37,861 nt of DNA. Source: Phreatobacter sp. Its GTDB lineage: Bacteria > Pseudomonadota > Alphaproteobacteria > Rhizobiales > Phreatobacteraceae. Positions 3,524 through 31,798 of this stretch are shown one piece after another; the stretch's first letter is position 1, and each line of letters begins with the position of its first letter. A model generated the notes under the pieces. That model had not been told where the DNA came from and ran no database searches. It saw only the letters and a program-made list of their open reading frames with translations. Where the stretch lies: NCBI GenBank assembly GCA_019749835.1, contig JAIEPJ010000314.1, forward strand, positions 1-37,861, read 5' to 3'. The position numbers and the translations under genes were made by a program.

Positions 3524-4369
3524 TCATTCCGGTCCCTGGCTGCCGACGACGGAGCGCACGCCGTGGCGGACGATGGCGATACGGCCCTCCTGGCCGAACA
3601 GCGCATCACCTGTGCCGGCGCCCTCGCCGGCCAGGTTGGAAACGGAGGCGTCGGCAAGACTGCGCAGCGACAGGGACAGGGTCCCGAGTTCGCGGGCGAG
3701 GGCGAGGGTCTCGGCCTGCGACGGGGTAAGTTCAAGTGTCGCCGTGCGACCGACGATCGTCTTCTCACCGCCCCGCTCCTCGACCGTCTGGTCGACGGCG
3801 AGAACCCGTACGTTGCGCAGGACGGTGGCGGTGGTGTGGGTGAGGCCCTCGGCCGTGGCGGCGGCGCTGCTGTTGCGGCGGGCGAGGATGACGTCGACGC
3901 GGTCGTTCGGCAGGATGAAGGCGCCGGCGCCGCGCGAGGGGTCGTCGATCGGGGCTGCGATGGCGCGCATGCCGGGGGTGAGGATCGCCGACATGAAACC
4001 GCGATTGCCCTTCACCAGCCGGGTGGGACGGATGGGCTCGCCGGGGACGAACGTTGTCCGCACGATGGAACCGATCACCTCGTCGAGGGCGGCGGCGCCG
4101 GTGTCGCCCGTGCGACGGACGACGAAGCTGCCGGTGCCGGCCTCTTCGGGCCAGCGGCGCCAGGTGACGTCGTTGGGCAGGATGATCTTGCCGAGCGGCA
4201 GGTCGGCATTGGCGACCAGGACCTCGACGGTCGGGATCTGCGGCGCGGGCGCAGCGGCCTGCTGCGGCGCCGGGACGGCCGTCTGGCGGCTCCCCATCAT
4301 CATGGCCGCAAGACCGCCCGCTCCGAGCGCCACGGCGATGACCACGATCTGTGCAGGCTTCAAACGCAT
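3524..4369 (-). CDS. cpaB: CpaB/RcpC, periplasmic Tad pilus assembly protein
   Basis: A 281-aa CpaB-family protein. It has one N-terminal membrane segment (PAQIVVIAVALGAGGLAAMM) and a Pro/Ala/Gln-rich linker. An SAF-type domain follows, starting with TVEVLVANADLPLGKIILP, and then the segment GMRAIAAPIDDPSRGAGAFI and LPNDRVDVIL, which is diagnostic for CpaB. The family is thought to work in the periplasm beside the CpaC secretin. The ATG at 4369 is chosen over 4414 because it begins the membrane segment directly and has GAGGG about 9 bases upstream. It is the first gene after a 138-bp gap from cpaA that carries a possible promoter, so cpaB-F may form their own transcription unit. Confidence 0.93.
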   Translation of the reverse strand: MRLKPAQIVVIAVALGAGGLAAMMMGSRQTAVPAPQQAAAPAPQIPTVEVLVANADLPLGKIILPNDVTWRRWPEEAGTGSFVVRRTGDTGAAALDEVIGSIVRTTFVPGEPIRPTRLVKGNRGFMSAILTPGMRAIAAPIDDPSRGAGAFILPNDRVDVILARRNSSAAATAEGLTHTTATVLRNVRVLAVDQTVEERGGEKTIVGRTATLELTPSQAETLALARELGTLSLSLRSLADASVSNLAGEGAGTGDALFGQEGRIAIVRHGVRSVVGSQGPE

Positions 4370-4436
4370 CCCACGAACCCTCGGCGCGACCAGGCGCAAC
4401 TCGCCTCGTCTCAACCCGGATTCGATCAGGGAAAGG

Positions 4437-4451
4437 TCAACTTATGGTTAA
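4437..4451 (-). promoter_or_regulatory. Candidate CtrA-type box upstream of cpaB
   Basis: On the minus strand the sequence reads TTAACCATAAGTTGAC, that is TTAA-N7-TTGA, one base from the CtrA full-site pattern TTAA-N7-TTAA. It lies about 70 bases upstream of the cpaB start, in the gap after cpaA. A GATTC (GANTC, CcrM-type methylation) site is at 4419-4423. CtrA controls pilA and the cpa genes in Caulobacter; its use here is inferred only from the motif. Confidence 0.35.
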
Positions 4452-4507
4452 CTGCCGGTGAGCAAGTTGACTTAACGAACGATGACTTGCCCTAACGTCA
4501 CCATTTT

Positions 4508-5014
4508 TTAGCGCAGGGCAGCAGTCATCCAGAAGCTGGAGGGGTAGAGCATGAGGCCCGCGGCGGCCAGGGCGATGCCATAGGGGATACCGGTCTTGGC
4601 ATCGGTCATGCGGGCATACCAGCCCTCGCGCAGCAGGAAGGGGGGATGGAGCGGGACCCCGCGCAGGGCGAGGAGGCCGATGGTCAGGAGGCCCCCGAAC
4701 AGCGACGCGTAGACCGCGTAATCCAGAAGCTGGGCCCAGCCGAGCCAGAGTGCCGTGGAGGCTGCGAGCTTGGCGTCGCCACCGCCCATCCAGCCCAGGG
4801 CGAAGCAGACGAAACAGATGCTGAGCACGAGGAAGCCGGCCGCCAGATGCATGCCGATGACCGGCCAGCTCATGCCGGTAAGGAAAGCCAGCACCAGGAA
4901 CCCTGCCACCAGGATCAGCGACACGCGGTTCGAGATCGTCATGGTGAAAAGGTCACTGGCCGCGGCGAAGGCCATCATCGCCGGGAAGATGAGAAGAATG
5001 GCGAACTCGAACAT
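4508..5014 (-). CDS. cpaA: CpaA, Flp-type prepilin peptidase (A24 family)
   Basis: A 168-aa polytopic membrane protein of the A24 (type IV prepilin peptidase) family. Two expected catalytic aspartates are visible, one in the segment AAASDLFTMTISNRVSL near the N-terminus and one in GWMGGGDAK. About five or six hydrophobic segments follow each other, as in TadV/CpaA proteins that lack the extra methylase domain. It would cleave the leader of the two Flp pilins (5311-5475 and 5872-6036) and of the TadE-like proteins (7373-8586). The ATG at 5014 is preceded by GGAAGGGA and gives the usual short N-terminus; the longer frame to 5125 adds a non-hydrophobic tail. Confidence 0.93.
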   Translation of the reverse strand: MFEFAILLIFPAMMAFAAASDLFTMTISNRVSLILVAGFLVLAFLTGMSWPVIGMHLAAGFLVLSICFVCFALGWMGGGDAKLAASTALWLGWAQLLDYAVYASLFGGLLTIGLLALRGVPLHPPFLLREGWYARMTDAKTGIPYGIALAAAGLMLYPSSFWMTAALR

Positions 5015-5063
5015 GGCATCCCTTCCGGTCAGGTGATGGCCCGACGATAGGGCAGGCCCGGTT

Positions 5064-5240
5064 TCAGGACAGTGAATGAACGAGGCCGACAACGCCCGTC
5101 GTGATGGCAACGAGCAGGACGGCAATCACCCAGCGGAGATCGCGTCGCGTGTCCTCGCGCAGGATGCCGAAGGCAGTCCTGTCGAGGGCGGGGCGATGGT
5201 TCGACGCGCGCGGGGCGGCCTGTCCCGTCAAGACGTGCAT
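5064..5240 (-). CDS. Possible 58-aa single-pass membrane protein
   Basis: A short frame between the first Flp pilin gene and cpaA that ends in a clear membrane segment (WVIAVLLVAITTGVVGLVH) after a basic stretch (LREDTRRDLR). This gives an N-in, single-pass topology. I do not recognise a family. The ATG at 5240 is chosen because the longer frame would run through the terminator-like hairpin at 5262-5288. The ribosome site is weak. A transmembrane segment preceded by charged residues is more than I expect from a chance frame, but the gene is unproven. If real, its position suggests a small partner in pilin processing or membrane anchoring. Confidence 0.4.
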   Translation of the reverse strand: MHVLTGQAAPRASNHRPALDRTAFGILREDTRRDLRWVIAVLLVAITTGVVGLVHSLS

Positions 5241-5261
5241 GGATCGGGCTTTCGGAAAGAC

Positions 5262-5288
5262 CGATGGCCCGCCGGGGGCGGGCCATCG
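5262..5288 (-). terminator. Hairpin after first Flp pilin gene
   Basis: A perfect 11-bp inverted repeat (CGATGGCCCGC with its complement; a twelfth pair is possible) lies 22 bases past the stop of the pilin gene at 5311-5475. On the minus strand it is followed by GTCTTTCC, only a weak U-tract. It probably stabilises the abundant pilin mRNA or partly ends transcription so that less message reads into cpaA. Confidence 0.6.
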
Positions 5289-5310
5289 CATGGGCGGCTG
5301 GACGCCGCGA

Positions 5311-5475
5311 TCACTTCAGGTTGGTGTTGATGTTGGTGAAGGTCGTGTTGACCTTGCTGCCGAGGTTGTAGACGGCGGTGATGACGACGGCGGCGATGCC
5401 GGCAGCGATCAGGCCGTATTCGATGGCGGTGGCGCCCGAGTTGTCCTTGGCGAAACGGGCGAAGAGGTTCTTCAT
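5311..5475 (-). CDS. Flp-type pilin, copy 1
   Basis: A 54-aa Flp/Fap pilin (PilA-like), the building block of the Tad pilus. It begins MKNLFARFAKDNSGATAIEY: a short basic leader, then the cleavage motif G-ATAIEY with Glu at +5 and Tyr at +6. The hydrophobic helix LIAAGIAAVVITAVYNLGS and a short polar tail ending NTNLK follow. An AGGAG site sits about 7 bases before the ATG. It is almost the same as the second copy at 5872-6036, differing mainly at one leader position (K for R) and in the tail (KVNTTFTNI versus NVNSKFEAI). It would be cut by CpaA (4508-5014) and exported through CpaB-F. Confidence 0.95.
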   Translation of the reverse strand: MKNLFARFAKDNSGATAIEYGLIAAGIAAVVITAVYNLGSKVNTTFTNINTNLK

Positions 5476-5797
5476 GGCTGACTCCTAGTTGTCCACGATG
5501 CGCCGAAAGAGCGCTGTTCGCCGGTCAATTTGCGATGATCGGTTCGAACTGACCGGACCTTATCGAGAAGCTCTTGCCCCTTCGTTAAGTCACAACTCGG
5601 ATCGGGTTAATTCTACGGCAGAATACAACTCGGTTAAAAACATATTTAATTCGTGACTTATTTGATTTTCAGCAAACGAAAACGCCTGTCTATTGTAGTT
5701 AATTTTTTATTTGCTGACGAATTTACGTCGTCTGCTTTTTTCTTGTTGCTGTTCGCTGGCCGCGATGCCTTGCCGGAGTTCTGCCGTGCGGCGGAAC
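5476..5797 (-). promoter_or_regulatory. Leader and promoter region of Flp pilin copy 1
   Basis: No convincing gene. The first 165 bases align well with the leader of pilin copy 2 (6037-6215). An AT-rich stretch, about 5590-5790, stands out against the GC-rich surroundings. TTAAAAACATATTTA (TTAA-N7-TTTA) at 5634-5648 lies about 159 bases upstream of the pilin start. The second copy has the same pattern at nearly the same distance, so this is a candidate regulator site; on the minus strand it reads TAAA-N7-TTAACC, near a CtrA box. I could not place -35 and -10 elements with certainty. Confidence 0.55.
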
Positions 5798-5839
5798 CAC
5801 AAAACAAGCCGGCCCTGCACACGGTGGTGCAGGGCCGGC
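5798..5839 (-). terminator. Intrinsic terminator of Flp pilin copy 2
   Basis: A perfect 13-bp inverted repeat (GCCGGCCCTGCAC at 5808-5820, complement at 5827-5839, loop of 6) begins 33 bases past the stop of the pilin gene at 5872-6036. On the minus strand it is followed by TTGTTTTGTGG, a fair U-tract. It should end the pilin copy 2 transcript before the promoter of copy 1, so the two pilins are probably separate transcripts. Confidence 0.8.
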
Positions 5840-5871
5840 GATGAGGCACGAAGACGCAGGGTGTGCGCTTC

Positions 5872-6036
5872 TTACTTCAGGTTGGTGTTGATGGCCTCGA
5901 ACTTGGAGTTGACGTTGCTGCCGAGGTTGTAGACGGCGGTGATGACGACGGCGGCAATGCCGGCGGCGATCAGACCGTATTCGATGGCGGTGGCGCCGGA
6001 ATTGTCCCGGGCGAAGCGTGCGAAGAGGTTCTTCAT
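5872..6036 (-). CDS. Flp-type pilin, copy 2
   Basis: A 54-aa Flp pilin. It begins MKNLFARFARDNSGATAIEY, with the same cleavage motif (G-ATAIEY) and hydrophobic helix as copy 1, and a slightly different surface tail (NVNSKFEAINTNLK). The start at 6036 matches copy 1 exactly and has AGGAG upstream; an in-frame ATG at 6057 would add MDKQESA and break the match. It has its own terminator (5798-5839) and an upstream region copied from, or into, copy 1. The sequence does not show which pilin is the major subunit. Confidence 0.95.
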   Translation of the reverse strand: MKNLFARFARDNSGATAIEYGLIAAGIAAVVITAVYNLGSNVNSKFEAINTNLK

Positions 6037-6689
6037 GGCTGACTCCTGTTTGTCCACGATGCGCCGTCTCGGGAGCGGCGCGGTCCGCCGGTCAAGTTGC
6101 TATGATCCGTTCGAACTGACTTCACGCTACCGAACAGCCCTTGCCGCATCGTTAAATCCATTTCGCGAAAATCTGAATTTTCGCAACGTATTGAATGTGG
6201 TTAAATGCTCATTTATCGGAAAAATAGAATCTATTTGTCGATAGGTATATGACGATGCTATGCACCATATACAGCCCTATTATTACGACATTCGGCAATC
6301 TTGGCCACCATATTCAAAATGAATATGGTGTTAATTGTCCCGCTTCGCTGATATTCCCTTTGGTAGTGCCTAAGGATTGTTTTTCTGCGGCGGGTCACCC
6401 AGGACAAATCCAGCAGCGATGACGCGCAACAGAACATGGAACAATTGTGCAGATGCCCGCGCCGCGAAGGCAATCGCCGGCCGGGTGGATGCCTTCACCG
6501 ACCACCAGCGTCTTTGCCGCGGCTGGTGATGCGGCCGGACCACGCATTGCCGGCAACGGGGCGCGCCGTCTTCCCTCCGAAGCGGCGCGGTCCATCGCGA
6601 CGGGACGCCGCCCGCCCCATTGGCAATTCATTCACCATTTCCTGTTTTTCTGCGGGAGCACATTGGACCGCCCCCGAACGAGAGCTTCG
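6037..6689. promoter_or_regulatory. Divergent intergenic region, 653 bp, no gene seen
   Basis: Lies between Flp pilin copy 2 (minus strand) and the gene at 6690 (plus strand). The pilin-proximal part carries the copied leader, with TTAAATGCTCATTTA (TTAA-N7-TTTA) at 6201-6215 and a GAATC (GANTC) site at 6227-6231. The middle, about 6160-6400, is AT-rich. A 10-bp perfect inverted repeat is at 6306-6330. The last 250 bases are GC-rich, and open frames there look like chance; no clear promoter could be fixed for the plus-strand gene. Confidence 0.6.
6306..6330. repeat. AT-rich perfect inverted repeat
   Basis: CACCATATTC and its exact complement GAATATGGTG are separated by AAAAT. In DNA form it resembles a dimeric repressor operator; as RNA it would be a 10-bp hairpin with a 5-base loop. 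It lies 270 bases from the pilin start and 360 bases from the plus-strand gene, so neither use is obvious. Confidence 0.55.
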
Positions 6690-9832: not shown

Positions 9833-11325
9833 CCGCCGCAATGGGCCGCCACGGCCGCCCGCTGCGCGGCATCGAGACGCAGCCCGAGCTTGGAGCGGCG
9901 CCACAGCACGTCGTCGGCGGTCAGGGCCCATTCCTCGCGCTTAAGATAGGCGATCTCGGCTTCGGTCAGACCCGCGCCAAAATCGCGGCCGAGATCGGTC
10001 ATCGCCGTCGCGCCCGCGAGAATGACCGCGGCCCGGCTGCCATAGGCCCCGGCGAGGCGGGCGGCGAGCTGGGGATCGAGGAAGGGATGGCTGCGCCGAA
10101 GGCTCTCCGCGAGGCCGGGCCCATCGGGGTCGATGTCGCCGCCGGGCAGCGCGGCCTCCGCCGTCCAGCCGATGCCCTCGCCCAGCGCCGGCAGGTCGGC
10201 GGCGAGCTCGTCGAGGGCGCTGATCGCGAGCCGGCGATACGTCGTGATCTTGCCGCCGAAAATGGAGAGGAGCGGCGGGACCGCGCCGCCGCCGTCCTTG
10301 TGAAGCACATAGTCGCGCGTCGCCTCCTGGGCGGCAGAGGCGCCATCGTCATAGAGCGGGCGGACGCCGGAATAGGTCCAGACGACGTCCGCGGGTGTCA
10401 CCGGGTCGCGGAAATATTCGCTCGCGGCCGCACAGAGATAGGCGATCTCGGCCGGGCTGGCGGTCACCGCCGCGGGGTCGCCGACATAGTCCTGGTCGGT
10501 CGTGCCGATCAGGGTGAAATCGCGCTCATAGGGAATGGCGAAGACGATGCGGGCATCGGCGTTCTGGAAAATATAGGCCCGGTCGTGATCGAAGAGCTTC
10601 GGCACGACGATATGCGAGCCCTGGACCAGACGGACCCGCGCCGGGGTGGGTGCCTTCGCGACCCCCGTGAGGAAGGTCTCGACCCAGGGCCCGGCCGCAT
10701 TGACGAGCGCCCTGGCTGCGACCGTTTCGGTGGCGCCGCTGATCCGATCTTCGAGCGTGACGTGCCAGAGGCCGCCTGCGCGCGTCGCGGCGACCGCCCG
10801 GGTGCGTGTTCGGATGACGGCGCCACGGTCGGCGGCGTCACGGGCGTTGAGCACGACAAGGCGCGAATCGTCGACGCGGCAGTCGGAATATTCGAAGGCC
10901 TTGCCATATCCGGCCTTCAGAGACTTGCCGGCGACGTCCGTCGCCAGGTCGAGCGTACGGGTCGCCCACAGACGCTTGCGGCCGCCGAGGTGGTCGTAGA
11001 GAAACAGGCCAAGGCGCAGCAACCAGGCCGGCCGCAGGCCCGCGTGATGGGGCAGAACGAAGCGCAGCGGCCGGATGATGTGCGGCGCGATGCCCCAGAG
11101 CACCTCGCGTTCGATCAGGGCCTCGCGCACCAGGCGAAACTCGTAGTGCTCGAGGTAACGCAAACCGCCATGGATCAGCTTGGTCGACCAGGACGAGGTG
11201 GCGCTGGCGAGATCGTCCTGCTCGACCAGCATGACGGAGACGCCGCGGCCGGCGGCATCGCGCGCGATGCCGGCTCCGTTGATGCCTCCGCCGACCACCA
11301 GAAGGTCGACCGTCGTCCCGGACAT
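9829..11325 (-). CDS. glpD: Aerobic glycerol-3-phosphate dehydrogenase
   Basis: A 498-aa FAD enzyme that oxidises sn-glycerol 3-phosphate to dihydroxyacetone phosphate and passes electrons to quinone at the inner membrane. The FAD loop is LLVVGGGINGAGIARDAAGR at residues about 8-28, followed by the family block TSSWSTKLIHGGLRYLEHYE. WTYSGVRPLYDDG and SIFGGKITTYRRLA are typical GlpD motifs, and a C-terminal helical domain closes the protein. The ATG at 11325 begins right at the FAD domain and has GGGGA upstream. It is divergent from glpK across a 126-bp region that must hold both promoters. I saw no glpF or glpR in the window. Confidence 0.96.
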   Translation of the reverse strand: MSGTTVDLLVVGGGINGAGIARDAAGRGVSVMLVEQDDLASATSSWSTKLIHGGLRYLEHYEFRLVREALIEREVLWGIAPHIIRPLRFVLPHHAGLRPAWLLRLGLFLYDHLGGRKRLWATRTLDLATDVAGKSLKAGYGKAFEYSDCRVDDSRLVVLNARDAADRGAVIRTRTRAVAATRAGGLWHVTLEDRISGATETVAARALVNAAGPWVETFLTGVAKAPTPARVRLVQGSHIVVPKLFDHDRAYIFQNADARIVFAIPYERDFTLIGTTDQDYVGDPAAVTASPAEIAYLCAAASEYFRDPVTPADVVWTYSGVRPLYDDGASAAQEATRDYVLHKDGGGAVPPLLSIFGGKITTYRRLAISALDELAADLPALGEGIGWTAEAALPGGDIDPDGPGLAESLRRSHPFLDPQLAARLAGAYGSRAAVILAGATAMTDLGRDFGAGLTEAEIAYLKREEWALTADDVLWRRSKLGLRLDAAQRAAVAAHCGG

Positions 11326-11451
11326 GCTATTCCCCAAGTGCCGCGTCAGCCCTCCGTCTGACGCCTTTTGGCTTCCGCCGCAAGGCTGCACGGTGGCACA
11401 GTGGACGCAATCCGGCAGCGGCCGAGCCGCGCCTTGCATGAGGAAACGCGC

Positions 11452-12963
11452 ATGCCCTCCGATCGGCACCCGCCCGTGATCGTCGCGATCGACCAGGGCA
11501 CCACATCCTCCCGTGCCATCGTCTTCAGCCAGCGGCTGGAGGTGGTCGCCATCGCCCAGCGGGAGTTCACCCAGCACTTTCCGGCCTCGGGCTGGGTCGA
11601 GCACGACCCCGAGGAAATCTGGTCCGGCGTGGTGGAGACGGCGCGCGAGGCCCTGGCGAAGGCGGGCGTGACCGCTGCGGATGTCGCCGGCATCGGCATC
11701 ACCAACCAGCGGGAGACCGTCGTGGTCTGGGACCGGGCGACGGGGGAGCCGATCCATCGCGCCATCGTCTGGCAGGACCGGCGCACCTCGGCTGTTTGCG
11801 CCCGCCTGCGCGCGGAAGGCCACGAGGCGCTGGTGCAGGCCCGCTCCGGCCTCGTCATCGATCCCTATTTTTCCGGGACCAAGCTCGCCTGGATCCTCGA
11901 CCATGTCCCCGGCGCGCGGGAGCGGGCGGAACGCGGCGAGCTCGCCTTCGGCACCATCGATTCCTTCCTGCTCTGGCGGCTGACCGGCGGCAAGGTTCAC
12001 GCGACCGATGCGACCAATGCCGCGCGCACCATGCTGTTCGACATTCATCGCGGTGTCTGGGACGCCGATCTTTGCCGGCTTCTGGACGTACCGATGGCCC
12101 TCCTGCCGAGGGTGATGGACTGCGCCGCCGCCTTCGGCACGACGGAGCCGGGCCTGTTCGGCGGCGCCATCGCCATCGGCGGTATGGCCGGCGACCAGCA
12201 GGCAGCAACGGTGGGCCAGGCCTGTTTCGCACCGGGCATGATGAAATCCACCTACGGCACCGGCTGCTTCGCCCTGCTCAATACCGGTACCGAGGCCGTG
12301 GTCTCGCGCAACAAGCTGCTCACCACCATCGCCTATCAGCTCGACGGGCGGCGCACCTATGCGCTCGAGGGCTCCATCTTCGTCGCGGGGGCGGCGGTGC
12401 AATGGCTGCGGGACGGGCTGGGAATCGTCCGGATGGCCGGCGAGACGGGGGCGCTGGCCGCCGCCTCCGATCCGAACCAGGAGGTCATCCTGGTCCCCGC
12501 CTTCGTCGGCCTCGGCGCGCCCTATTGGGACGCCGATTGCCGCGGCGCCATCTTCGGCCTGACGCGGGCGACCGGCCCGAAGGAAATGGCGCGGGCGGCA
12601 CTGGAAAGCGTCTGTTTCCAGACCGCCGACCTGCTGGGCGCCATGCAGGCGGACTGGCCGGGTGCGGGCGCCTCGGGCACCGTGCTGCGCGTCGACGGCG
12701 GCATGGTGGCCTCCGACTGGACCATGCAGCGCCTTGCCGATCTTCTCGATGCGCCGGTCGACCGACCGAAGGTACTGGAGACGACGGCGCTGGGCGCCGC
12801 CTATCTCGCCGGCCTGTCGCGGAGCGTCTGTCCACCGCCAGCCGACTTCGCCCGCAGCTGGGCACTGGAGCATCGCTTCACGCCCGCCATGGATGCGACG
12901 GTCCGCGAGGACAAGCTCGCCCGCTGGAAGGATGCCGTGGCGCGCACGTTGTCACGGCGGTGA
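11452..12963 (+). CDS. glpK: Glycerol kinase
   Basis: A 503-aa FGGY-family kinase that phosphorylates glycerol to sn-glycerol 3-phosphate, the substrate of the neighbouring GlpD. Visible motifs are [17 protein letters not shown] at the start (phosphate-1 loop), [15 protein letters not shown], the segment [18 protein letters not shown], and [16 protein letters not shown] near the end. Length is normal for GlpK. The ATG at 11452 follows GAGGAAA by 6 bases. It ends 16 bases from the convergent ScfR-type gene. No glycerol facilitator is adjacent, so uptake must be encoded elsewhere or be passive. Confidence 0.96.
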
Positions 12964-17197: not shown

Positions 17198-17982
<785 letters not shown>

Positions 17983-17986
<4 letters not shown>

Positions 17987-18720
17987 GCGGCGCGCGCTCC
18001 GCGGATCAGGGAAATGGCTTCGGCGGGATCGAGCCGGCCGTCATAGAGCGCCTTGCCGGTGATGGCGCCTGCGAGCTTCGCCGCCCGCGGCGTGAGGAGC
18101 TGGCGCACGTCGTCGAGGGAGGCGAGGCCGCCGGAAGCGATGACGGGGATGGAGACGGCGTCGGCGAGCGCGATCGTGCCGTCCCAGTCGATGCCGGTCA
18201 GCATGCCGTCACGGGCGATGTTGGTGTAGACGATGGCGGCGACGCCGGCGTCCTCGAAGCGGCGGGCGAGGTCGTGGGCGGCGAGTGTCGAGGTCTCCGC
18301 CCAGCCCTCCACCGCGACCCAGCCGTCGCGCGCATCGATGCCGACGGCCACCTGTCCGGGAAAGGCCTTGGCGGCGGTCCTGACGAAGTCCGGATCGCGC
18401 ACCGCAGCCGTACCGATGATGACGCGGGAGACGCCCTTGGCCAGCCAGCCCTCGACCGTCTTCATGTCGCGGATGCCGCCGCCGAGCTGGACCGGGAAGG
18501 CGGTCGCCGCGCGGATGGCCTCCACCGCCGCCGCATTGACCGGCTTGCCGGCAAAGGCGCCATCGAGATCGACGACGTGGAGATAGTCGAAGCCCTGGAC
18601 CTCGAAGGCGCGGGCCTGGGCGGCGGGATCGTCGGCATAGATGGTGGCCTGGGCCATGTCGCCCTGGCGCAGGCGCACGCAGCGGCCGTCCTTCAGGTCG
18701 ATGGCGGGAAAGAGCCTCAT
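17983..18720 (-). CDS. hisA: ProFAR isomerase
   Basis: A 245-aa (beta/alpha)8 isomerase that converts ProFAR to PRFAR in histidine synthesis. Seen are [20 protein letters not shown] at the start (catalytic Asp in AIDLKDG), [39 protein letters not shown]-like [10 protein letters not shown] and [14 protein letters not shown]. The ATG at 18720 starts directly at the barrel; the frame runs on upstream only because the repeat at 18780-18908 happens to be open. Overlaps hisF by 4 bases. Confidence 0.97.
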
Positions 18721-18779
18721 GATGCGGTCTCGGAAACGTGGCGCCGGTCCGGGCGGCAGCCGGCCTGACAGGAAGGGCG

Positions 18780-18908
18780 CTTCACCTCTCCCCGGCGGGG
18801 AGAGGTCGGCCGGAGCTGCAGCGACGGTCGGGTGAGGGGGTGAGAGCGAGCCACGGCCCCCTCTCCCGCCGCTGCGCACCGACCTCTCCCCGCCGGGGAG
18901 AGGTGAAG
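18780..18908. repeat. Palindromic repeat inside the his operon
   Basis: 28-base arms at 18780-18807 and 18881-18908 are exact inverted copies. Each arm is itself a hairpin (ACCTCTCCCC, loop GGC, GGGGAGAGGT). The inner 73 bases keep partial symmetry (GGTCGG and CAGCG blocks on both sides). It fills most of the 217-base gap between hisH and hisA. The type CCTCTCCCCG with GGGGAGAGG is frequent between genes in rhizobial relatives. Read-through from hisH to hisA is likely needed, so it probably does not fully terminate. Confidence 0.85.
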
Positions 18909-18937
18909 GACAGGTCGCGCCCGCCGGGTCGATGCGG

Positions 18938-19588
18938 TCACGGTCGCCACTCCAGGAAATTGCCGATGAGAGACAGGCCCAGCGTCTGGCTCTTCTCGGG
19001 ATGGAACTGCGTGCCGACCATCGTGTCGCGGGCGATCATGGCCGTGACCCTGGAACCGTAATCGGCCTCGGCGAGAACCACGTCATCGGCCGTCGCGGTG
19101 AGGTGATAGGAATGGACGAAGTAGGCGTGGAGACCGTCCGGTCCTGTGGGAATGCCGGCGAGGACCGGGTGGTCGCGCGTCACGTTCAGCGTGTTCCAGC
19201 CCATATGCGGGATCTTCAGGGCGGGATCGGCCGGGCGGATCAGGTCGATGTCGCCCGGCACCCAGCCGAGACCGGCCGTCGTGTCCTTCTCCAGGCCACG
19301 GCCGGCCATGAGCTGCATGCCGACGCAGATGCCGAGGAAGGGGCGGCCACGGCCACGCACGGCTTCCGTCAGGGCCTCGATCATGCCGGGGACCCCGGCG
19401 AGGCCCGCCTTGCAGTCGGCAAAGGCGCCGACGCCAGGCAGGACGATGCGGTCGGCCCGGCGCACGCTGTCGGGGTCGGCGGTCACCAGAACCGGGACGT
19501 TGAGGCCACGCTCGCGGGCCATGCGCTCGCAGGCCTTCTGGGCCGAATGCAGGTTGCCCGAGCCGTAATCGACGATGGCGACGCTCAC
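18938..19588 (-). CDS. hisH: Imidazole glycerol phosphate synthase, glutaminase subunit
   Basis: A 216-aa class I glutamine amidotransferase that feeds ammonia to HisF. Motifs: [14 protein letters not shown] at the start, [19 protein letters not shown] with the catalytic Cys, and [13 protein letters not shown] with the catalytic His and Glu. The start is a GTG at 19588 overlapping the stop of the DUF2628 gene (GTGA). Longer frames upstream are not coding. Gap to hisA is taken up by a palindromic repeat. Confidence 0.96.
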
Positions 19589-20088
19589 CGCCGGCCCCGC
19601 ACGCTCGGATCGGCCTCCGGAAAGAGGCCGAGAACGGGCTGCGGGCCCATGGGGGCGGCGACCGCCGGCTGCGACGCCGCGAAGAGCGATTCCGGGCGGG
19701 CGGCGGGAACGGTTCCGCGCTCGGCGAAATAGCGCCGCTCGGCCTCGTCCTGCGATCCGGCGACGACCACCGCCACCTCGCGCCAGCCGCGGCGGCGCAG
19801 CGTCCAGCGCTTCAGGTTGGTTGCCTCGAGACCGATCAGCAGGCTGAGGGCGGTCGTGATCATCGTGCGCAGCAGCGGCGACAGACCGGCAAAGGACAGC
19901 GCCAGCAGCGTCAGGCCCAGCAGCGCGAGATAGGCCAGCGTCACCAGCCACATGCGCTGCAGCGGAAACCACGCCCAGGGAAACAGGAAGGCGAGCGGCG
20001 CGAAGGAATCCGGCACGAACTGGACGGCGTCGTCGCCGGTCCTACCCGGAGGGGGGAGATGGACGGTGTAGCTCGTCTGGCGCGCCAT
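19585..20088 (-). CDS. DUF2628-type membrane protein
   Basis: A 167-aa protein with two or three hydrophobic segments ([35 protein letters not shown], a third in [16 protein letters not shown]). The sequence [20 protein letters not shown] fits the DUF2628 family. A Pro/Ala-rich cytoplasmic tail follows. It sits between hisB (1-base overlap) and hisH (4-base overlap), a position I recall for this family in other rhizobial his clusters. The function is unknown and no part suggests a catalytic role in histidine synthesis; it may simply share the transcript. Confidence 0.85.
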
Positions 20089-20675
20089 CAGAGCACTCCC
20101 TTGGTGGAGGGGATCTCGTTCGCCCGCCGGGCATCGATGGTGAAGGCGGCGCGCAGAGCGCGCGCGAGACCCTTGAAGCAGCTCTCGGCGACATGGTGGG
20201 CATTGTCGCCGTAGAGCGTCTCGACATGCAGGGTGATGCCGGCATTCATGGCGAAGGCCTGAAAGAACTCGCGCACCAGTTCGGTGTCGAAGGTGCCGAT
20301 CTTGTGGCGGGTGAATGCGGTGCGAAAGACGAGGAAGGGCCGGCCGGAGACGTCGACGGCAACGCGGGTCAGCGTCTCGTCCATGGGCAGATGGACGTCG
20401 GCATAACGGGTGATGCCCTTCATGTCGCCGAGGGCCTGGCGCACCGCCTGTCCAAGAGCGATGCCGACGTCCTCCACCGTGTGGTGGTCGTCGATATGCA
20501 GGTCGCCCTTTGCGCGGATGGAGATGTCGATCATGCCATGACGCGCGATCTGGTCGAGCATGTGGTCGAAGAAGCCGACACCGGTCGCAACCTCGGCGCG
20601 GCCGGAGCCGTCGAGATCGACGGAGACGATGATGTCCGTCTCCTTGGTGGTGCGGGTGATCTGGCCTTTGCGCAT
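20088..20675 (-). CDS. hisB: Imidazoleglycerol-phosphate dehydratase
   Basis: A 195-aa monofunctional IGPD (no phosphatase domain). Seen are the start [50 protein letters not shown] (manganese ligands), and [20 protein letters not shown] (second ligand set). It converts imidazole glycerol phosphate to imidazole acetol phosphate. It is first in the his cluster and is divergent from hslV, 134 bases away, an arrangement frequent in Hyphomicrobiales. Confidence 0.97.
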
Positions 20676-26151: not shown

Positions 26152-26931
26152 TCAGCGCCGGCCGGGGAACTTGCCCCTGTTGCGGGCGAGATCGGCAAGG
26201 GCGCCGGCCCGCACCGCGGCCATGTCGCATTCGCCGATGACGATGCCGTAGCCACGCTCGGCGAGCATGAGCGGGTCGCGGCCGGGGATCGGGATCGTTC
26301 CCAGCACCTTGCCGGCCTTGAGCGTCGCTTCCGCCGCCCGGTCGATGCTCGCCAGCACATCCGGCTCGGTCAGGCGTCCAAGCTTGCCGAGCGAGCCGGC
26401 GAGATCGTTGGCGCCGATGAACAGGCAGTCGGCACCCGGCAGCGCGGCCATCGCCGCCGCATTCTGCGAGGCGAGGTCGCTCTCCACCTGGAGGGCGAGG
26501 AACGTGTCCTCGTGGGCGGTGTCGATATAGTCCTCGGCGAAGCCATAGAGCCCCGAGCGGGCGACGGAGGCGGAGTAGCCACGGCGGCCACGCGGCGGAT
26601 AGAGGCAGGAGGCGATGATGCCCTGCGCCTGCTCCACCGTGTCGATCATCGGCACCATCAGCGAATGGATGCCGGCATCCAGCATCCGCTTGAACATGCC
26701 GAAATCGTGGCTCGGCACGCGCACCATGGCGTCGCCGCCGCCGGCCTCGACCGCGCGCACGCAGGCCAGCGTCTCCGCCATGTCGATCGGCGTGTGCTCG
26801 GCGTCGATCAGCACGATGTCGTAGCCGGCAAGCGCATAGGTCTCGCAGACCGCGGGGGCTCCGGAGAACACCCAGGCGCCGAGAAGCCTCTCGCCCGCCA
26901 GGGCGCGGCGCTTGATGCGGTTGCGGGTCAT
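26152..26931 (-). CDS. HpcH/HpaI-family aldolase
   Basis: A 259-aa class II pyruvate aldolase-type barrel. Motifs are YDIVLIDAEHTPIDMAETLA (early His and acidic residues), AMVRVPSHDFGMFKRMLDAG, SLMVPMIDTVEQAQGII, LYPPRGRRGYSASVARSGLY, then a metal-binding region around VESDLASQNAAAMAALPGAD and CLFIGANDLAGSLG. Relatives cleave 2-keto-3-deoxy acids or 4-hydroxy-2-oxo acids to pyruvate and an aldehyde. The substrate is unknown. It overlaps the rbsK-like gene by ATGA, so its product or substrate may come from a sugar phosphorylated by that kinase. Confidence 0.87.
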   Translation of the reverse strand: MTRNRIKRRALAGERLLGAWVFSGAPAVCETYALAGYDIVLIDAEHTPIDMAETLACVRAVEAGGGDAMVRVPSHDFGMFKRMLDAGIHSLMVPMIDTVEQAQGIIASCLYPPRGRRGYSASVARSGLYGFAEDYIDTAHEDTFLALQVESDLASQNAAAMAALPGADCLFIGANDLAGSLGKLGRLTEPDVLASIDRAAEATLKAGKVLGTIPIPGRDPLMLAERGYGIVIGECDMAAVRAGALADLARNRGKFPGRR

Positions 26932-27869
26932 GGGGTCGTCCTCCGGTTTGGCGGGTTTCTCTGCTCCGCCAGGATGGCAGCTGCCGCATCGATGACGGCG
27001 AGATGGGGAATGCTCGGCTGGGCACCTGGCCGGCTGCAGGCGAGAGATCCTGCCGCTGCCGCGAATTCGAGGGCGGTTTCCAGGCCGCGGCGGCGGTCGA
27101 GCGCCGCGGCGAGCGCGCCGCAGAAGGTGTCGCCCGCGGCGGTGGTGTCGACCACCTCAACGGGATAGGCGGGGGCCTCGTGGCGGATTCCGTCGGCCCA
27201 GCAGATGGCGCCCTCCGCGCCGAGGGTCACGGCGACGGCGAGGCCATGGCGCGCCGATATCGCGGCGGCGACGCCATCCGCGCCGCCATCGACGAGGCCG
27301 AAACCGGCGCCGAGCGCCAGGACCTCGTGGGCGTTGACGACGATGACATCGACGAGGGCCGCCAGGTCCAGCGAGACGGGCCCGGCCGGAGCGCGGTTGA
27401 GGATGACGCGCATGTCGCGTGCACGCGCCCAGCGCGCGGCGGCGAGGATTTCCGCCTCGGGCACTTCCCATTGCATCAGGAGCGTGTCGCGCGCGGCCGG
27501 CGCCAGGCTTTCGAGCGCCGTCGCCCGGACGGCGGCATTGGCCCCCGCGGCGACAACGATCTGGTTCTCTCCCGCGGCGTCGACCGCGATGAAGGCGACG
27601 CCGGTCGCCGCATCGACGGGGACGACCGCGGACAGATCGACGCCGGCCTCCCCGAGCAGGGAGAGCGCCGGCGTGGCGTAGCCATCCCGGCCGACCGCTC
27701 CGACCAGCGCCACCGCGGCGCCGGCCCGTCGCGCCGCGAGGGCCTGGTTGGCGCCCTTGCCGCCGGGGATCACGGCATAATCGGGTCCCGCCACGGTCTC
27801 GCCCGCGCGCGGGAGGGCCGGGACGCGGGCGACCAGGTCGATGTTGATGGAACCGAAGACGATGATCAT
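26928..27869 (-). CDS. rbsK: Ribokinase-like PfkB sugar kinase
   Basis: A 313-aa kinase. IIVFGSINIDLVARVPALPR at the start, IPGGKGANQALAARRAGA (substrate), VVNAHEVLALGAGFG and EVVDTTAAGDTFCGALAAAL (catalytic Asp) agree with ribokinases. It would phosphorylate ribose, or a related pentose or deoxysugar. No ribose ABC transporter is near. The downstream gene codes for an HpcH/HpaI-type aldolase with a 4-base overlap, unlike standard rbs operons, so the substrate may not be ribose; the symbol is by family only. Confidence 0.85.
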   Translation of the reverse strand: MIIVFGSINIDLVARVPALPRAGETVAGPDYAVIPGGKGANQALAARRAGAAVALVGAVGRDGYATPALSLLGEAGVDLSAVVPVDAATGVAFIAVDAAGENQIVVAAGANAAVRATALESLAPAARDTLLMQWEVPEAEILAAARWARARDMRVILNRAPAGPVSLDLAALVDVIVVNAHEVLALGAGFGLVDGGADGVAAAISARHGLAVAVTLGAEGAICWADGIRHEAPAYPVEVVDTTAAGDTFCGALAAALDRRRGLETALEFAAAAGSLACSRPGAQPSIPHLAVIDAAAAILAEQRNPPNRRTTP

Positions 27870-28004
27870 GACAGGCGGAGGCGGCAGGGAGCCAAGGCTT
27901 GCGCTGCGGCAGCCACAGGGTCAAGCCGGTGTGAGCAGGGCGGCCTTGCATGCCGCGGGACGTCCATCACCGCTTTTCATTTGCCCTGACCGGGCAACCG
28001 CCCC

Positions 28005-28766
28005 ATGTGCTCCGTCATGAGTTCCGTCACCGCCGCCATCGAGGTCGAGAACCTGGTCAAGGATTACGGACCCGTCAGGGCCGTGGCCGGACTGAGCTTT
28101 GCCGTGGCCGGCGGCTCGACGACGGCGCTGCTCGGCGGCAATGGTGCCGGCAAGTCGACGACGATCGGCATGATCATGGGGCTCGTCCTGCCGACCTCCG
28201 GCACGGTCCGCGTGCTCGGGACGGACATGGTGCGGCGGCGCCACGACGTGCTGCACCGGATGAACTTCGAGAGCCCCTATGTGGACATGCCGCACCGGCT
28301 GACGGTCCGGCAGAATCTCCAGGTCTTCGGCATGCTCTACGGCGTCCCGGACCTGTCCGCCCGCATCGCGACGCTCGCCGCCGACCTCGACCTCACCGCC
28401 CTGCTGGACCGGCCTTCAGGCAAATTGTCGGCCGGGCAGAAGACACGGGTGGCGCTCGCCAAGGCGCTCATCAACGAACCCGAGGTCATGCTTCTGGACG
28501 AACCGACCGCCTCGCTTGACCCGGATACGGCCGACTGGATCCGCGGCCATCTGGAGCGCTACCGCGACCGGCGCGGCGCAGCCATCCTTCTGGCGTCGCA
28601 CAATATGGGCGAGGTCGAACGGCTCTGCGACCGCGTGATCATGCTGAAACAGGGCCGCATCGAGGACGACGCTTCGCCCGCCGAACTCATCCGCCGCTAC
28701 GGCCGCAGCAGCCTCGAGGAGGTCTTCCTCGACGTCGCGCGCGGCCGCCGGGAGACTGCCGCATGA
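28005..28766 (+). CDS. ABC-2-type transporter ATP-binding protein
   Basis: A 253-aa ATPase. Walker A is GGNGAGKST at residues 44-52, the signature is LSAGQ at 141-145 (variant of LSGGQ), Walker B is VMLLDE at 161-166 followed by PTASLDP, and the H-loop His is at 199 (ASHNMGEVERLCD). The C-terminal end SSLEEVFLDVARGRRE is like drug or polysaccharide ABC-2 exporters (CcmA type). Either ATG at 28005 or at 28017 could start it. It overlaps a TrpF-like gene (ATGA), which in turn overlaps the permease gene (29419-30216). Confidence 0.93.
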   Translation: MCSVMSSVTAAIEVENLVKDYGPVRAVAGLSFAVAGGSTTALLGGNGAGKSTTIGMIMGLVLPTSGTVRVLGTDMVRRRHDVLHRMNFESPYVDMPHRLTVRQNLQVFGMLYGVPDLSARIATLAADLDLTALLDRPSGKLSAGQKTRVALAKALINEPEVMLLDEPTASLDPDTADWIRGHLERYRDRRGAAILLASHNMGEVERLCDRVIMLKQGRIEDDASPAELIRRYGRSSLEEVFLDVARGRRETAA

Positions 28767-29422
28767 GCGCCCGCACCCGCGTCAAGATCTGCTGCATTTC
28801 CTCGCTCGCCGAGGCCGCGATGGCGATCGCCGCCGGCGCCGATGCGCTCGGCATGGTCGCCGCCACGCCGCCGGGATCGGGCATGGTCGACGATGCGACC
28901 ATCCGGGCGATCACCGCCGAGGTGCCGCCGCCGATCGCGACGTTCCTCCTGAGCTCGCGGCTCACCGGCCTCGAAATCGCCGAGCACGTAAGGCATTGCG
29001 GTGCCAGCACCATCCAGATCGTCGACCATATCGATCCCGGAGAGATCGCCGTCCTGGCGGTGGCAATGCCAGCCGTGCGGCGCGTGCAGGTCATCCATGT
29101 CGAGGGCCCCTCGGCGCTGGACCTCATCCCGCGCTACGAGCCCTATGTCCACGCCTTCCTGCTGGATTCGGGCAAGCCGGGCGGGACGATGCGCGAACTC
29201 GGAGGGACCGGTCGCACCCATGACTGGGACGTCAGCCGCGCCTTCGTCCGGGCGACGCGCCGGCCGGTGTTCCTCGCCGGCGGCCTGACGCCGGCCAATG
29301 TGGCGGAAGCCATCGCAAAGGTGGGCCCGTTCGGGGTCGACCTCTGTTCCGGGGTCAGGACCGACGGCCATCTCGACCCGGAGAAGCTCGCCGCCTTCAT
29401 GGCGGCGGTGAGGGCCGCATGA
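28763..29422 (+). CDS. TrpF-like (phosphoribosylanthranilate isomerase-fold) protein
   Basis: A 219-aa (beta/alpha)8 protein. The start RVKICCISSLAEAAMAIAAG with ADALGMV matches TrpF, with the general-base Cys at 10; the general-acid Asp is at 135 (FLLDSGKPGG). A phosphate site is seen in GGTGRTHDW (147-155), FLAGGLTPANV and GVDLCSGV. However, the segment where TrpF normally has an Arg for the anthranilate carboxylate (KSKRYI in Thermotoga) reads TPPGSGMV, and the VQLHG strand reads IQIVD. It may thus act on another phosphoribosyl-type substrate. It overlaps the ABC ATPase and permease genes by 4 bases each. No other trp gene is near. Confidence 0.8.
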   Translation: MSARTRVKICCISSLAEAAMAIAAGADALGMVAATPPGSGMVDDATIRAITAEVPPPIATFLLSSRLTGLEIAEHVRHCGASTIQIVDHIDPGEIAVLAVAMPAVRRVQVIHVEGPSALDLIPRYEPYVHAFLLDSGKPGGTMRELGGTGRTHDWDVSRAFVRATRRPVFLAGGLTPANVAEAIAKVGPFGVDLCSGVRTDGHLDPEKLAAFMAAVRAA

Positions 29423-30216
29423 GCTTTTCCGTCCAGCGCGTCGGCGCGCTCTGCCTGCGCTACATCTATCTCCTCGCCTCGTCCTGGCCGCGGCTTCTCG
29501 AGCTTGTCTACTGGCCGGTGCTCAATCTCCTGACCTGGGGCTTCCTGCAGACCTATGCCATGAGCGCGACCAACAGCACGCTGTTCGTCGGCGGGGCGCT
29601 GGTGTCGGGCCTGCTGCTGTGGGAGGTGCTGTTCCGCGGCCAGATCGGCTTCTCGATCTCGTTCCTCGAGGAGGTCTGGTCGCGCAATCTCGGCAATCTC
29701 CTGATGAGCCCGCTGCGGCCGGCCGAGTTCGTCGCGGCGCTGATGGTGATGAGCCTCGCCCGCCTCGCGGTCGGCATGATCCCGGCGACCATCCTCGCCA
29801 TCGCCTTCTTCGGGTTCGACCTGGCGCGGCTGGGGATCGGCTTTGCCGCCTTCTTTGCGCTGCTCGTCGTCACCGGCTGGGCGGTCGGGCTGGTCGTCTG
29901 CGGCCTGATCCTGCGCCACGGTCTCGGCGCGGAAAGCCTCGCCTGGACGATCATGTTCGTCTTCTGGCCGCTCTGCTGCGTCTATTATCCCCTGAGCGTG
30001 CTGCCGGGCTGGCTGAAGCCCTTCGCCCTGGCGCTGCCGCCGACCCATGTCTTCGAGGGCATGCGGGCGGTGCTGTCGGAGGGCGTGCTGCGCCTCGACC
30101 TGCTGGCGGCAGCCGCCGCGCTCAACGTGTTGTGGATCGTCGCGGCCTCCTTCGCCTTCGCCGCCCTGCTGGACCGCGCGCGCGACGCGGGAACCCTCCT
30201 GTCCAGCGGCGAGTGA
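29419..30216 (+). CDS. ABC-2-type transporter permease
   Basis: A 265-aa membrane protein with six predicted segments (among them LLELVYWPVLNLLTWGFLQT, LVSGLLLWEVLFRG, LAVGMIPATILAIAFFGFDL, FFALLVVTGWAVGLVVCGLI, FVFWPLCCVYYPLSVLPGWL). The last of these, followed by LPPTHVFEGMRAVL, is typical of ABC-2 permeases. With the ATPase at 28005-28766 it would form an exporter; two copies of each per complex are likely. The substrate is unknown. Its start overlaps the TrpF-like gene stop by ATGA, so the three products are probably made in fixed ratio. Confidence 0.92.
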   Translation: MSFSVQRVGALCLRYIYLLASSWPRLLELVYWPVLNLLTWGFLQTYAMSATNSTLFVGGALVSGLLLWEVLFRGQIGFSISFLEEVWSRNLGNLLMSPLRPAEFVAALMVMSLARLAVGMIPATILAIAFFGFDLARLGIGFAAFFALLVVTGWAVGLVVCGLILRHGLGAESLAWTIMFVFWPLCCVYYPLSVLPGWLKPFALALPPTHVFEGMRAVLSEGVLRLDLLAAAAALNVLWIVAASFAFAALLDRARDAGTLLSSGE

Positions 30217-30460: not shown

Positions 30461-31798
30461 GTGCTTTACCACTGGTACGAAGCCACCCATGCCATGCTGT
30501 CGCCCTATCGGGCCATGGCCGACGCCACCAAGCTGGCCCTGAACAGCCCGGTCAATCCCTTCTCGCACATGCCGATGGCCAAGCAGATGGCCGCCGGCGC
30601 AGAAATGTTCGAGCGCGCCACCCGGCGCTACGGCAAGCCGAGTTTCGACCTGCCGACCGCGTTTGTCGGCGGTGAACGTGTCGCGGTGACCGAGACTGTC
30701 GTGTGGAAACGGCCCTTCTGCGACCTCGTTCATTTCCAGCGCGCGGTTCCGGCGCGTCGCCGGCCAGACCCCAAGGTGCTGATCGTCGCCCCGATGTCGG
30801 GCCATTACGCGACGCTGCTGCGCGGCACGGTCGAGGCCTTCCTGCCGAACCACGAGGTCTACATCACCGACTGGCTCGACGCCCGCATGGTGCCGCTGGC
30901 GGACGGGCGCTTCGACCTCGACGACTATGTCGACTACGTCATCTCAATGCTGCATTTCCTCGGCCCGGACACCCATGTCATGGCGGTCTGCCAGCCAGCG
31001 GTGCCGGTCTTCATGGCCGTGGCGCGCATGGAGGCCGAGGACGATCCCTATGTCCCGACGACGCTGACCCTGATGGGCGGCCCGATCGACACGCGGTCCA
31101 ACCCCACCGCTGTCAACAAGCTCGCGGAGGAGCGCGGCACCGACTGGTTCCAGCGCAACGTCATCACCACCGTGCCGTTCCCGCATCCCGGCATGATGCG
31201 GCCGGTCTATCCGGGCTTCCTGCAGATCAATGGCTTCATGTCGATGAATCTCGACCGCCATGTCGACGCCCATCGCGAAATGTTCCGCAACCTCGTCAAG
31301 GGCGACGGCGACAACGCGCAGAAGCACCGCGGCTTCTACGACGAATATCTGGCGGTGATGGACCTCACCGCCGAATTCTACCTGCAGACCATCGAGCGGG
31401 TCTTCGTCGAGCACCACCTGCCGCGCGGCACGATGATGCATCGCAACCAGCGGGTCGATCCCAAGGCGATCAAGCGCGTCGCGCTGCTGACGGTCGAGGG
31501 CGAGAAGGACGACATCACCGGCGGCGGACAGACGCTGGCGGCCCACGGGCTCGCCACCTCGATTCCCGAGGACATGCGCCATCACCACCTGCAGGCGGCG
31601 GTCGGTCATTACGGCGTCTTCAACGGCTCGCGTTTCCGGGCCGACATCGCCCCTCGCGTGATGGATTTCATGCGCACCCATGCCTATCGCAAGGCCCAGG
31701 CCGCCAAGGTCCCCGCCAAGGAGAAGCCGTCCGCCAAGGCGACGGTGCTCAAGATGATCCGCGGCGGGCGCACCGTGGATGCGGCGAAGGGCGACTGA
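30461..31798 (+). CDS. phaZ: Intracellular polyhydroxybutyrate depolymerase
   Basis: A 445-aa alpha/beta hydrolase that degrades native PHB granules in the cytoplasm. It starts with LYHWYEATHAMLSPYRAMAD, typical of the PhaZ family, has the family segment IVAPMSGHYATLLRGTVEAF, the nucleophile Cys177 in VMAVCQPAVP (Cys instead of Ser, as in Ralstonia PhaZa1), an acid-residue region LLTVEGEKDDITGGG, and the late catalytic His in AAVGHYGVFNGSRF. The start is GTG at 30461, set by a GGAGG 7 bases upstream. The 244-base gap before it shows TTGGCAGTGCAGCAA (30332-30346), a TGC-rich sequence that could be a PhaR-type site, but this is weak. Confidence 0.95.
   Translation: MLYHWYEATHAMLSPYRAMADATKLALNSPVNPFSHMPMAKQMAAGAEMFERATRRYGKPSFDLPTAFVGGERVAVTETVVWKRPFCDLVHFQRAVPARRRPDPKVLIVAPMSGHYATLLRGTVEAFLPNHEVYITDWLDARMVPLADGRFDLDDYVDYVISMLHFLGPDTHVMAVCQPAVPVFMAVARMEAEDDPYVPTTLTLMGGPIDTRSNPTAVNKLAEERGTDWFQRNVITTVPFPHPGMMRPVYPGFLQINGFMSMNLDRHVDAHREMFRNLVKGDGDNAQKHRGFYDEYLAVMDLTAEFYLQTIERVFVEHHLPRGTMMHRNQRVDPKAIKRVALLTVEGEKDDITGGGQTLAAHGLATSIPEDMRHHHLQAAVGHYGVFNGSRFRADIAPRVMDFMRTHAYRKAQAAKVPAKEKPSAKATVLKMIRGGRTVDAAKGD

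Follow-up and report, generated by a model that had tools for sequence, protein, structure and literature searches.

We analyzed a 37,861-nt stretch of DNA from Phreatobacter sp. (assembly GCA_019749835.1, contig JAIEPJ010000314.1; hereafter, the window), in which a gene for a protein resembling phosphoribosylanthranilate isomerase (TrpF) lies between the ATPase and permease genes of an ATP-binding cassette (ABC) exporter of the ABC-2 type. Sequence comparison indicates that this protein, which we named TrpF2, belongs to a separate paralog family of TrpF that is apparently undescribed. Linkage between TrpF2 and the exporter is confined to Phreatobacter among the loci seen; in several other genera TrpF2 lies in same-strand clusters of nucleoside catabolic genes. 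With moderate confidence, we consider TrpF2 to be a phosphoribosyl isomerase that serves nucleoside or ribose catabolism and was secondarily inserted into the exporter operon.

TrpF2 is similar to TrpF (PF00697; structures 1NSJ and 1LBM of the Thermotoga maritima enzyme) in its fold, its catalytic Cys and Asp and its glycine-rich phosphate loops. Residues were tallied over 56 TrpF2 rows and 40 TrpF rows (22 canonical and 18 haloarchaeal), with residue numbers of the T. maritima enzyme derived from the alignment. By this alignment, Cys10 and Asp135 of TrpF2 correspond to Cys7 and Asp126 of T. maritima TrpF, which we take to be its catalytic residues. Because this pair and the phosphate-loop glycines are conserved, TrpF2 is probably an active enzyme. 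On the other hand, Arg36 of TrpF is replaced by Gly, Glu184 by Arg, and the QLHG motif by a QIV-type sequence (IQIVDH in the window protein); the His of this motif was present in all 40 TrpF rows and in none of the 56 TrpF2 rows. In addition, Gln109, His112 and Gly137 are invariant in TrpF2 only, and Arg199, which occupies the Glu184 place, is invariant as well. A single TrpF2 row, L046, has an Arg at the Arg36 place (in an MPTSPR loop); it groups with TrpF2 and keeps the family-invariant residues. A salt bridge between Arg36 and Glu184 was described in simulated TrpF with bound phosphoribosyl-anthranilate, in which Arg36 shields the substrate from the negative side chain (PMC9088769). As read from the alignment, the two partners of this bridge are exchanged jointly in TrpF2, and an Arg occupies the Glu place. 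An initial annotation of this DNA had pointed out the retained Cys and Asp, the absence of an Arg from the early loop and the altered VQLHG strand, all of which were borne out by alignment to T. maritima TrpF; the exchange of the Arg-Glu pair goes beyond the loss of one Arg. Since the pocket residues are changed, anthranilate is argued against as part of the substrate.

The separation of TrpF2 from TrpF was also seen in a 100-row tree (built by a quick method, with Shimodaira-Hasegawa-like approximate likelihood ratio test support only), in which the 56 TrpF2 rows formed one group (support 98) that excluded the 23 canonical and 18 haloarchaeal TrpFs. Duplicates, fragments, sequences with stops and unrelated sequences were left out of both the tree and the residue tallies (L030, L033, L055, L056, L060, L070, L076, L078-L084, L089, L105 and C_L128). 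Haloarchaeal matches (L057-L081) were regarded as true TrpFs and put aside, because the Arg and the QLHG-type His are kept in each of the 18 rows used. Three weak class-level matches (L196-L198) did not group with the TrpF2 clade and were omitted from the counts; one of these, L198, is also located near homologues of add, deoA, deoC and pnp. TrpF2 stayed below the cut-off of every NCBIfam TrpF model listed, the best equivalog score being 125 bits vs a cut-off of 215 (NF002298). The predicted structure of TrpF2 had a mean predicted local distance difference test score (pLDDT) of 87.6, and its 14 best fold matches in PDB all contained PRAI, with TMq values of 0.77-0.84 against the ten best single-domain PRAI chains. 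Values of pLDDT below 50 were found at residues 36-39, immediately before Gly40, and at residues 139-150. Full-text searches of open-licence papers, assessed by the titles and abstract openings of the matches listed, revealed no prior description of such a family.

In Phreatobacter, TrpF2 is part of a conserved gene trio. As the initial annotation had described, three open reading frames (ORFs) on the plus strand, coding for the ABC ATPase, the TrpF-like protein and the ABC-2 permease, overlap by ATGA at both joints, in agreement with ORF coordinates and Pfam matches. An ABC_tran ATPase is paired with an ABC2_membrane permease, each above its Pfam cut-off. The trio was found in all 11 other genomes listed for the genus (12 with that of the window). 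The start codon in the 4-base overlap between the ATPase and TrpF2 genes, which is present in all 12 genomes, is ATG in 10 genomes and GTG in 2; the single genome lacking the second overlap has a 10-bp gap. Protein identity across these loci was 68-97%; near-identical loci in named records were from Phreatobacter metagenome-assembled genomes (MAGs; 97 and 95%). Pairwise ratios of nonsynonymous to synonymous substitution rates (dN/dS) against the window copy were 0.07-0.31 for TrpF2, 0.08-0.16 for the ATPase and 0.05-0.24 for the permease, indicating purifying selection on all three genes. Given overlaps conserved across the genus at such identity and dN/dS values, the layout is not a chance arrangement, and a strain-specific layout is ruled out. 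Within the region between the trio and a divergent ribokinase-like gene, the blocks GGTCAA and ATTTGCCCT were identical in all 12 loci.

Such conservation agrees with the model of the initial annotation, in which TrpF2 prepares or senses a compound moved by the exporter, as does the purifying selection on the three genes. However, elsewhere the exporter and TrpF2 each occur without the other. A permease search of 199 genomes of the order (E ≤ 1e-20) gave single matches in 52 genomes, 45 of them outside Phreatobacter. Exporter loci were examined in 23 of these 45 genomes, and a TrpF-like gene was present in none. The ATPase gene was upstream of the permease gene on the same strand in 22 of the 23 loci, the other locus being near a contig end, and a phaZ homologue was 3′ of the permease gene, again on the same strand, in 21. 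Of the 22 loci showing both the ATPase and permease genes, 17 had them no more than about 104 bp apart. They were separated by approximately 1 kb in three loci (L147, L148 and L154). L147, the only one of these that was read, has an opposite-strand gene in this place (Pfam F420_oxidored and P5CR_dimer), which is no operon insertion, and a general gene slot between ATPase and permease was rejected. In the reverse direction, no permease match was detected at E ≤ 1e-4 in any of 60 non-Phreatobacter TrpF2 loci (50 in a first set and 10 later), and the best ATPase match across these loci had 32% identity. In one genome, G181, the ABC pair was present along with TrpF2, with the two on different contigs. 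An obligate partnership of TrpF2 with the exporter as a general property is ruled out by these two sets of loci, and the proposal that TrpF2 functions by working with the exporter was not supported; we regard it as unlikely for Phreatobacter itself. The three-gene layout and its overlaps were seen in that genus only.

Since the phaZ-linked ATPase-permease pair recurs in other genera without TrpF2, ATPase-permease-phaZ looks like the older unit. The pair resembles two-gene ABC-2 exporters of the DrrAB/NodIJ type, its best NCBIfam matches being drrA for the ATPase and the DrrB-family Mtu_efflux for the permease, both below curated cut-offs. It differs from these systems in the extra same-strand gene between ATPase and permease, which among the loci seen is a feature of Phreatobacter only.

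The neighborhoods of TrpF2 in several other genera point to nucleosides. Four same-strand clusters were of this kind: permeases-cdd-pnp-deoC-aldDH-deoA-add-TrpF2 (L200), permeases-cdd-pnp-deoC-aldDH-deoA-deoB-TrpF2 (L201), permeases-cdd-pnp-deoA-deoB-(one gene)-add-TrpF2-5′-nucleotidase (L202) and permeases-cdd-pnp-deoA-deoB-add-GTP_CH_N protein-DUF1688-upp-TrpF2-PfkB kinase (L199). One copy of each main product was checked against Pfam (deoB as metalloenzyme superfamily only), and placements were made by tblastn. The presence of TrpF2 in such clusters in several genera likens its setting to that of deo-type nucleoside catabolic operons (deoA, deoB, deoC, add, pnp, cdd, upp); among the open-licence papers listed in a search, none was found that places a TrpF-like gene in operons of this type. 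With a tblastn query of 18 genes, taken partly from these loci, at least two listed genes were found in 9 of 50 non-Phreatobacter TrpF2 loci (L048, L053, L055, L098, which is the same as L199, and L200-L204), and two more loci had one; the 50 include two near-copies (L029 and L030). When the list was kept fixed and two further orders were searched, at least two listed genes were found in 5 of 10 later loci, one further locus had only add, at the end of its contig, and the remaining four had none. Of 20 control stretches (19.9 kb each, from 10 TrpF2 genomes, with positions set at round numbers), one contained two listed genes (deoC and aldDH), and none contained add, deoA, deoB, pnp, cdd or upp. 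At one TrpF2 locus with no listed gene, L245, a gene for an inosine-uridine nucleoside hydrolase was beside TrpF2 on the other strand.

Several points weigh against a role in nucleoside catabolism. Six of the nine positive loci of the first set supplied query genes, making that count partly circular, and L053, one of the other three, had weak matches (25-34% identity). Among the later loci, three of the five positive ones belong to a single genus already seen, and new genera alone gave 2/6. No such cluster was seen in 41 of the 50 non-Phreatobacter loci, some of which had very short flanks, and at the Phreatobacter locus the ribokinase-like gene is the only nucleoside-type gene near by. Furthermore, RpiA or RpiB was present in all 35 TrpF2 genomes checked (RpiA in 25, RpiB in the remaining 10), which would make isomerization of ribose 5-phosphate by TrpF2 redundant. 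Finally, the tight conservation of the trio across Phreatobacter hints at an advantage of making TrpF2 together with the exporter.

With these points in mind, we still favor a phosphoribosyl isomerase acting in the catabolism of nucleosides or ribose, because ribose 5-phosphate and N-ribosyl compounds are products of the nucleoside clusters. TrpF and HisA/PriA carry out the Amadori rearrangement of phosphoribosyl amines (PMC9088769, PMC7591586), and this chemistry of TrpF fits a phosphoribosyl substrate for TrpF2. TrpF2 would share it with HisA/PriA, from which it differs in that its Pfam match is PRAI and not His_biosynth and in that a separate HisA-like gene is present in the window. We envisage that TrpF2 performs a TrpF-type ring opening and aldose-to-ketose (Amadori-type) shift by means of Cys10 and Asp135, and that its substrate would be a 5-phosphoribosyl compound other than phosphoribosyl-anthranilate. 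Candidates are ribose 5-phosphate or an N-ribosyl 5-phosphate derived from nucleoside breakdown. In an ancestor of Phreatobacter, the TrpF2 gene may have entered the older ATPase-permease-phaZ unit, divergent to the ribokinase-like gene. Through the overlapping start and stop codons, TrpF2 would now be made in step with the exporter, which presumably does not need it. The modest reading of this coupling is co-expression from the region shared with the ribokinase-like gene; a functional link to export is the bolder one.

A special case of the favored reading, whose probability overlaps with it, is that TrpF2 is a catabolic ribose-5-phosphate isomerase. TrpF2 adjoins a ribokinase-like gene both in L199 and in Phreatobacter, and ribose 5-phosphate, the known product of DeoB, is expected to arise in these clusters. 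However, given that RpiA or RpiB already serves every genome checked, this special case seems improbable, and replacement of a missing ribose-5-phosphate isomerase by TrpF2 was not supported. The kinase encoded directly after TrpF2 in L199 was 57% identical to the ribokinase-like protein of the window. Among 251 matching plasmid records, the eight best ribokinases listed were 46-48% identical, but one record outside the listing was in the 60-80% band. The likeness between the L199 and window kinases is thus only a hint.

Phosphoribosyl-urea is suggested as a different substrate by the same genome, L199, in which proteins with DUF1688 and GTP_CH_N lie beside upp, TrpF2 and the PfkB kinase (positions 10001-12655), possibly forming a bacterial URC-like cluster for uracil catabolism. 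We take the GTP_CH_N and DUF1688 proteins to correspond to URC1 and URC4, respectively. URC4 is described as degrading ribosylurea (PMC7530994). A link of TrpF2 to the URC pathway is a lead from this one genome. Extending the favored reading, we propose, only tentatively, that TrpF2 could be a new phosphoribosyl isomerase of nucleoside breakdown (acting, for example, on a ribose phosphate or on an N-(5-phosphoribosyl) compound such as phosphoribosyl-urea) that arose from TrpF by loss of the loop-3 pocket Arg and gain of an Arg at the Glu184 place, was captured into the Phreatobacter exporter operon, and there may feed or relieve export of a ribose-derived by-product.

That TrpF2 is a redundant second phosphoribosyl-anthranilate isomerase would be in line with its fold, its conserved Cys and Asp and its annotation as such in plasmid records. 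We consider this very unlikely: Arg36 is changed in 55 of 56 rows, Glu184 and the QLHG His are each changed in 56 of 56, and a separate canonical trpF was detected in 23 of 25 TrpF2-bearing genomes of the order. The window genome is one in which the window gene as sole trpF is ruled out. A second, canonical PF00697 gene, whose possible presence beside trpBA had been raised in the initial annotation, lies elsewhere in this genome, scores 156 bits vs 72 for the window gene, and overlaps a trpB-like gene (Pfam PALP) by 4 bases. In the window itself, no trp genes were seen on reading the gene calls, as had been stated. Together with the family-wide alteration of the anthranilate-side residues, the canonical gene upholds the earlier view that TrpF2 is not the housekeeping TrpF. 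Two of the 25 genomes gave no canonical trpF. In G036, the contig carrying trpA (4,279 bases) breaks off 814 bases upstream of this gene, in the region expected to contain trpB and trpF; G181, in which trpA was not found either, is 86% complete. A non-catalytic sugar-phosphate sensor or regulatory subunit is the least probable alternative, and highly so: TrpF2 adjoins transport genes in several genomes and two loops of the predicted structure have low confidence, but invariant Cys10 and Asp135 (56/56) and the new invariant Gln109, His112 and Arg199 suggest catalysis.

The TrpF2 family is uncommon. It was detected in 25 of 297 genomes of the order (E ≤ 1e-30), 12 of 385 genomes of the class (scores above 270 bits) and 3 of 398 genomes of the phylum, the source genome being included each time. 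Named MAGs containing TrpF2 were placed by a tree tool in Acidobacteriota, Planctomycetota, Verrucomicrobiota, Gemmatimonadota and Myxococcota, a spread over phyla that rests on MAG placement, as MAG bins can contain stray contigs. TrpF2 also occurs on two sphingomonad plasmids and one Acaryochloris plasmid, whose records all name it phosphoribosylanthranilate isomerase. On the Sphingomonas/Sphingobium plasmids (L029/L030, positions 9998-10675), it is located beside a DUF4403 gene and a response regulator. A TrpF2 with 55% identity (L254, positions 4108-4755) was found on a phage-like IMG/VR contig of 31.8 kb; a terminase large subunit is encoded nearby, and a guanylate-cyclase-domain gene adjoins TrpF2. 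Other neighbors of TrpF2 included CobT, a purine-type phosphoribosyltransferase, GTP cyclohydrolase I, BioY, EamA and flotillin. In L050 (positions 4989-6255), the gene for GTP cyclohydrolase I, an enzyme that also performs an Amadori-type step, directly follows TrpF2, the longest ORFs overlapping by 14 bases.

Features of the TrpF2 locus are listed in Table 1. Elsewhere in the window, histidine genes are present on the minus strand (17198-20675), coding for HisF- and HisA-like proteins (His_biosynth), a HisH-like glutamine amidotransferase and IGPD (hisB); the HisA-like gene (Pfam His_biosynth, 17983-18879) is about 10 kb from TrpF2.

Table 1. Features of the Phreatobacter TrpF2 locus (positions in the window)
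Feature	Positions	Strand	Remarks
PfkB-family kinase, probable ribokinase, divergent neighbor	26928..27869	-	Pfam PfkB 3.1e-54; same position in 12/12 Phreatobacter
Divergent intergenic region between kinase and trio; probable promoter region	27870..28004	.	114-148 bp in 12/12 Phreatobacter loci
ABC-2 exporter ATPase gene	28005..28766	+	253 aa; Pfam ABC_tran 2.7e-28, above cut-off
ATGA stop/start overlap, ATPase-TrpF2	28763..28766	+	Present in 12/12 Phreatobacter genomes
TrpF2 gene, TrpF-fold paralog	28763..29422	+	219 aa; Pfam PRAI 5.7e-20, 72.3 bits vs cut-off 22.7
Cys10 codon, equivalent of TrpF catalytic Cys7	28790..28792	+	Cys in 56/56 TrpF2 and 40/40 TrpF
Gly40 codon, at TrpF Arg36 place	28880..28882	+	Gly in 55/56 TrpF2; Arg in 40/40 TrpF
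His112 codon, invariant in TrpF2	29096..29098	+	His in 56/56 TrpF2 and 0/22 canonical rows
Asp135 codon, equivalent of TrpF catalytic Asp126	29165..29167	+	Asp in 56/56 TrpF2 and 40/40 TrpF
Arg199 codon, at TrpF Glu184 place	29357..29359	+	Arg in 56/56 TrpF2; Glu in 40/40 TrpF
ATGA stop/start overlap, TrpF2-permease	29419..29422	+	Present in 11/12 Phreatobacter genomes
ABC-2 permease gene	29419..30216	+	265 aa; Pfam ABC2_membrane 7.7e-9, above cut-off
Polyhydroxybutyrate (PHB) depolymerase gene (phaZ-like), downstream of ABC pair	30461..31798	+	Pfam PHB_depo_C 5.5e-97

TrpF and HisA are model enzymes for the evolution of new specificities. A family in which the catalytic pair is kept and the Arg-Glu pair is replaced would be a natural counterpart to laboratory evolution of HisA and TrpF. 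Annotation of TrpF2 as phosphoribosylanthranilate isomerase would mislead pathway reconstruction and, if the favored reading is true, TrpF2 would represent an unassigned step in nucleoside breakdown.

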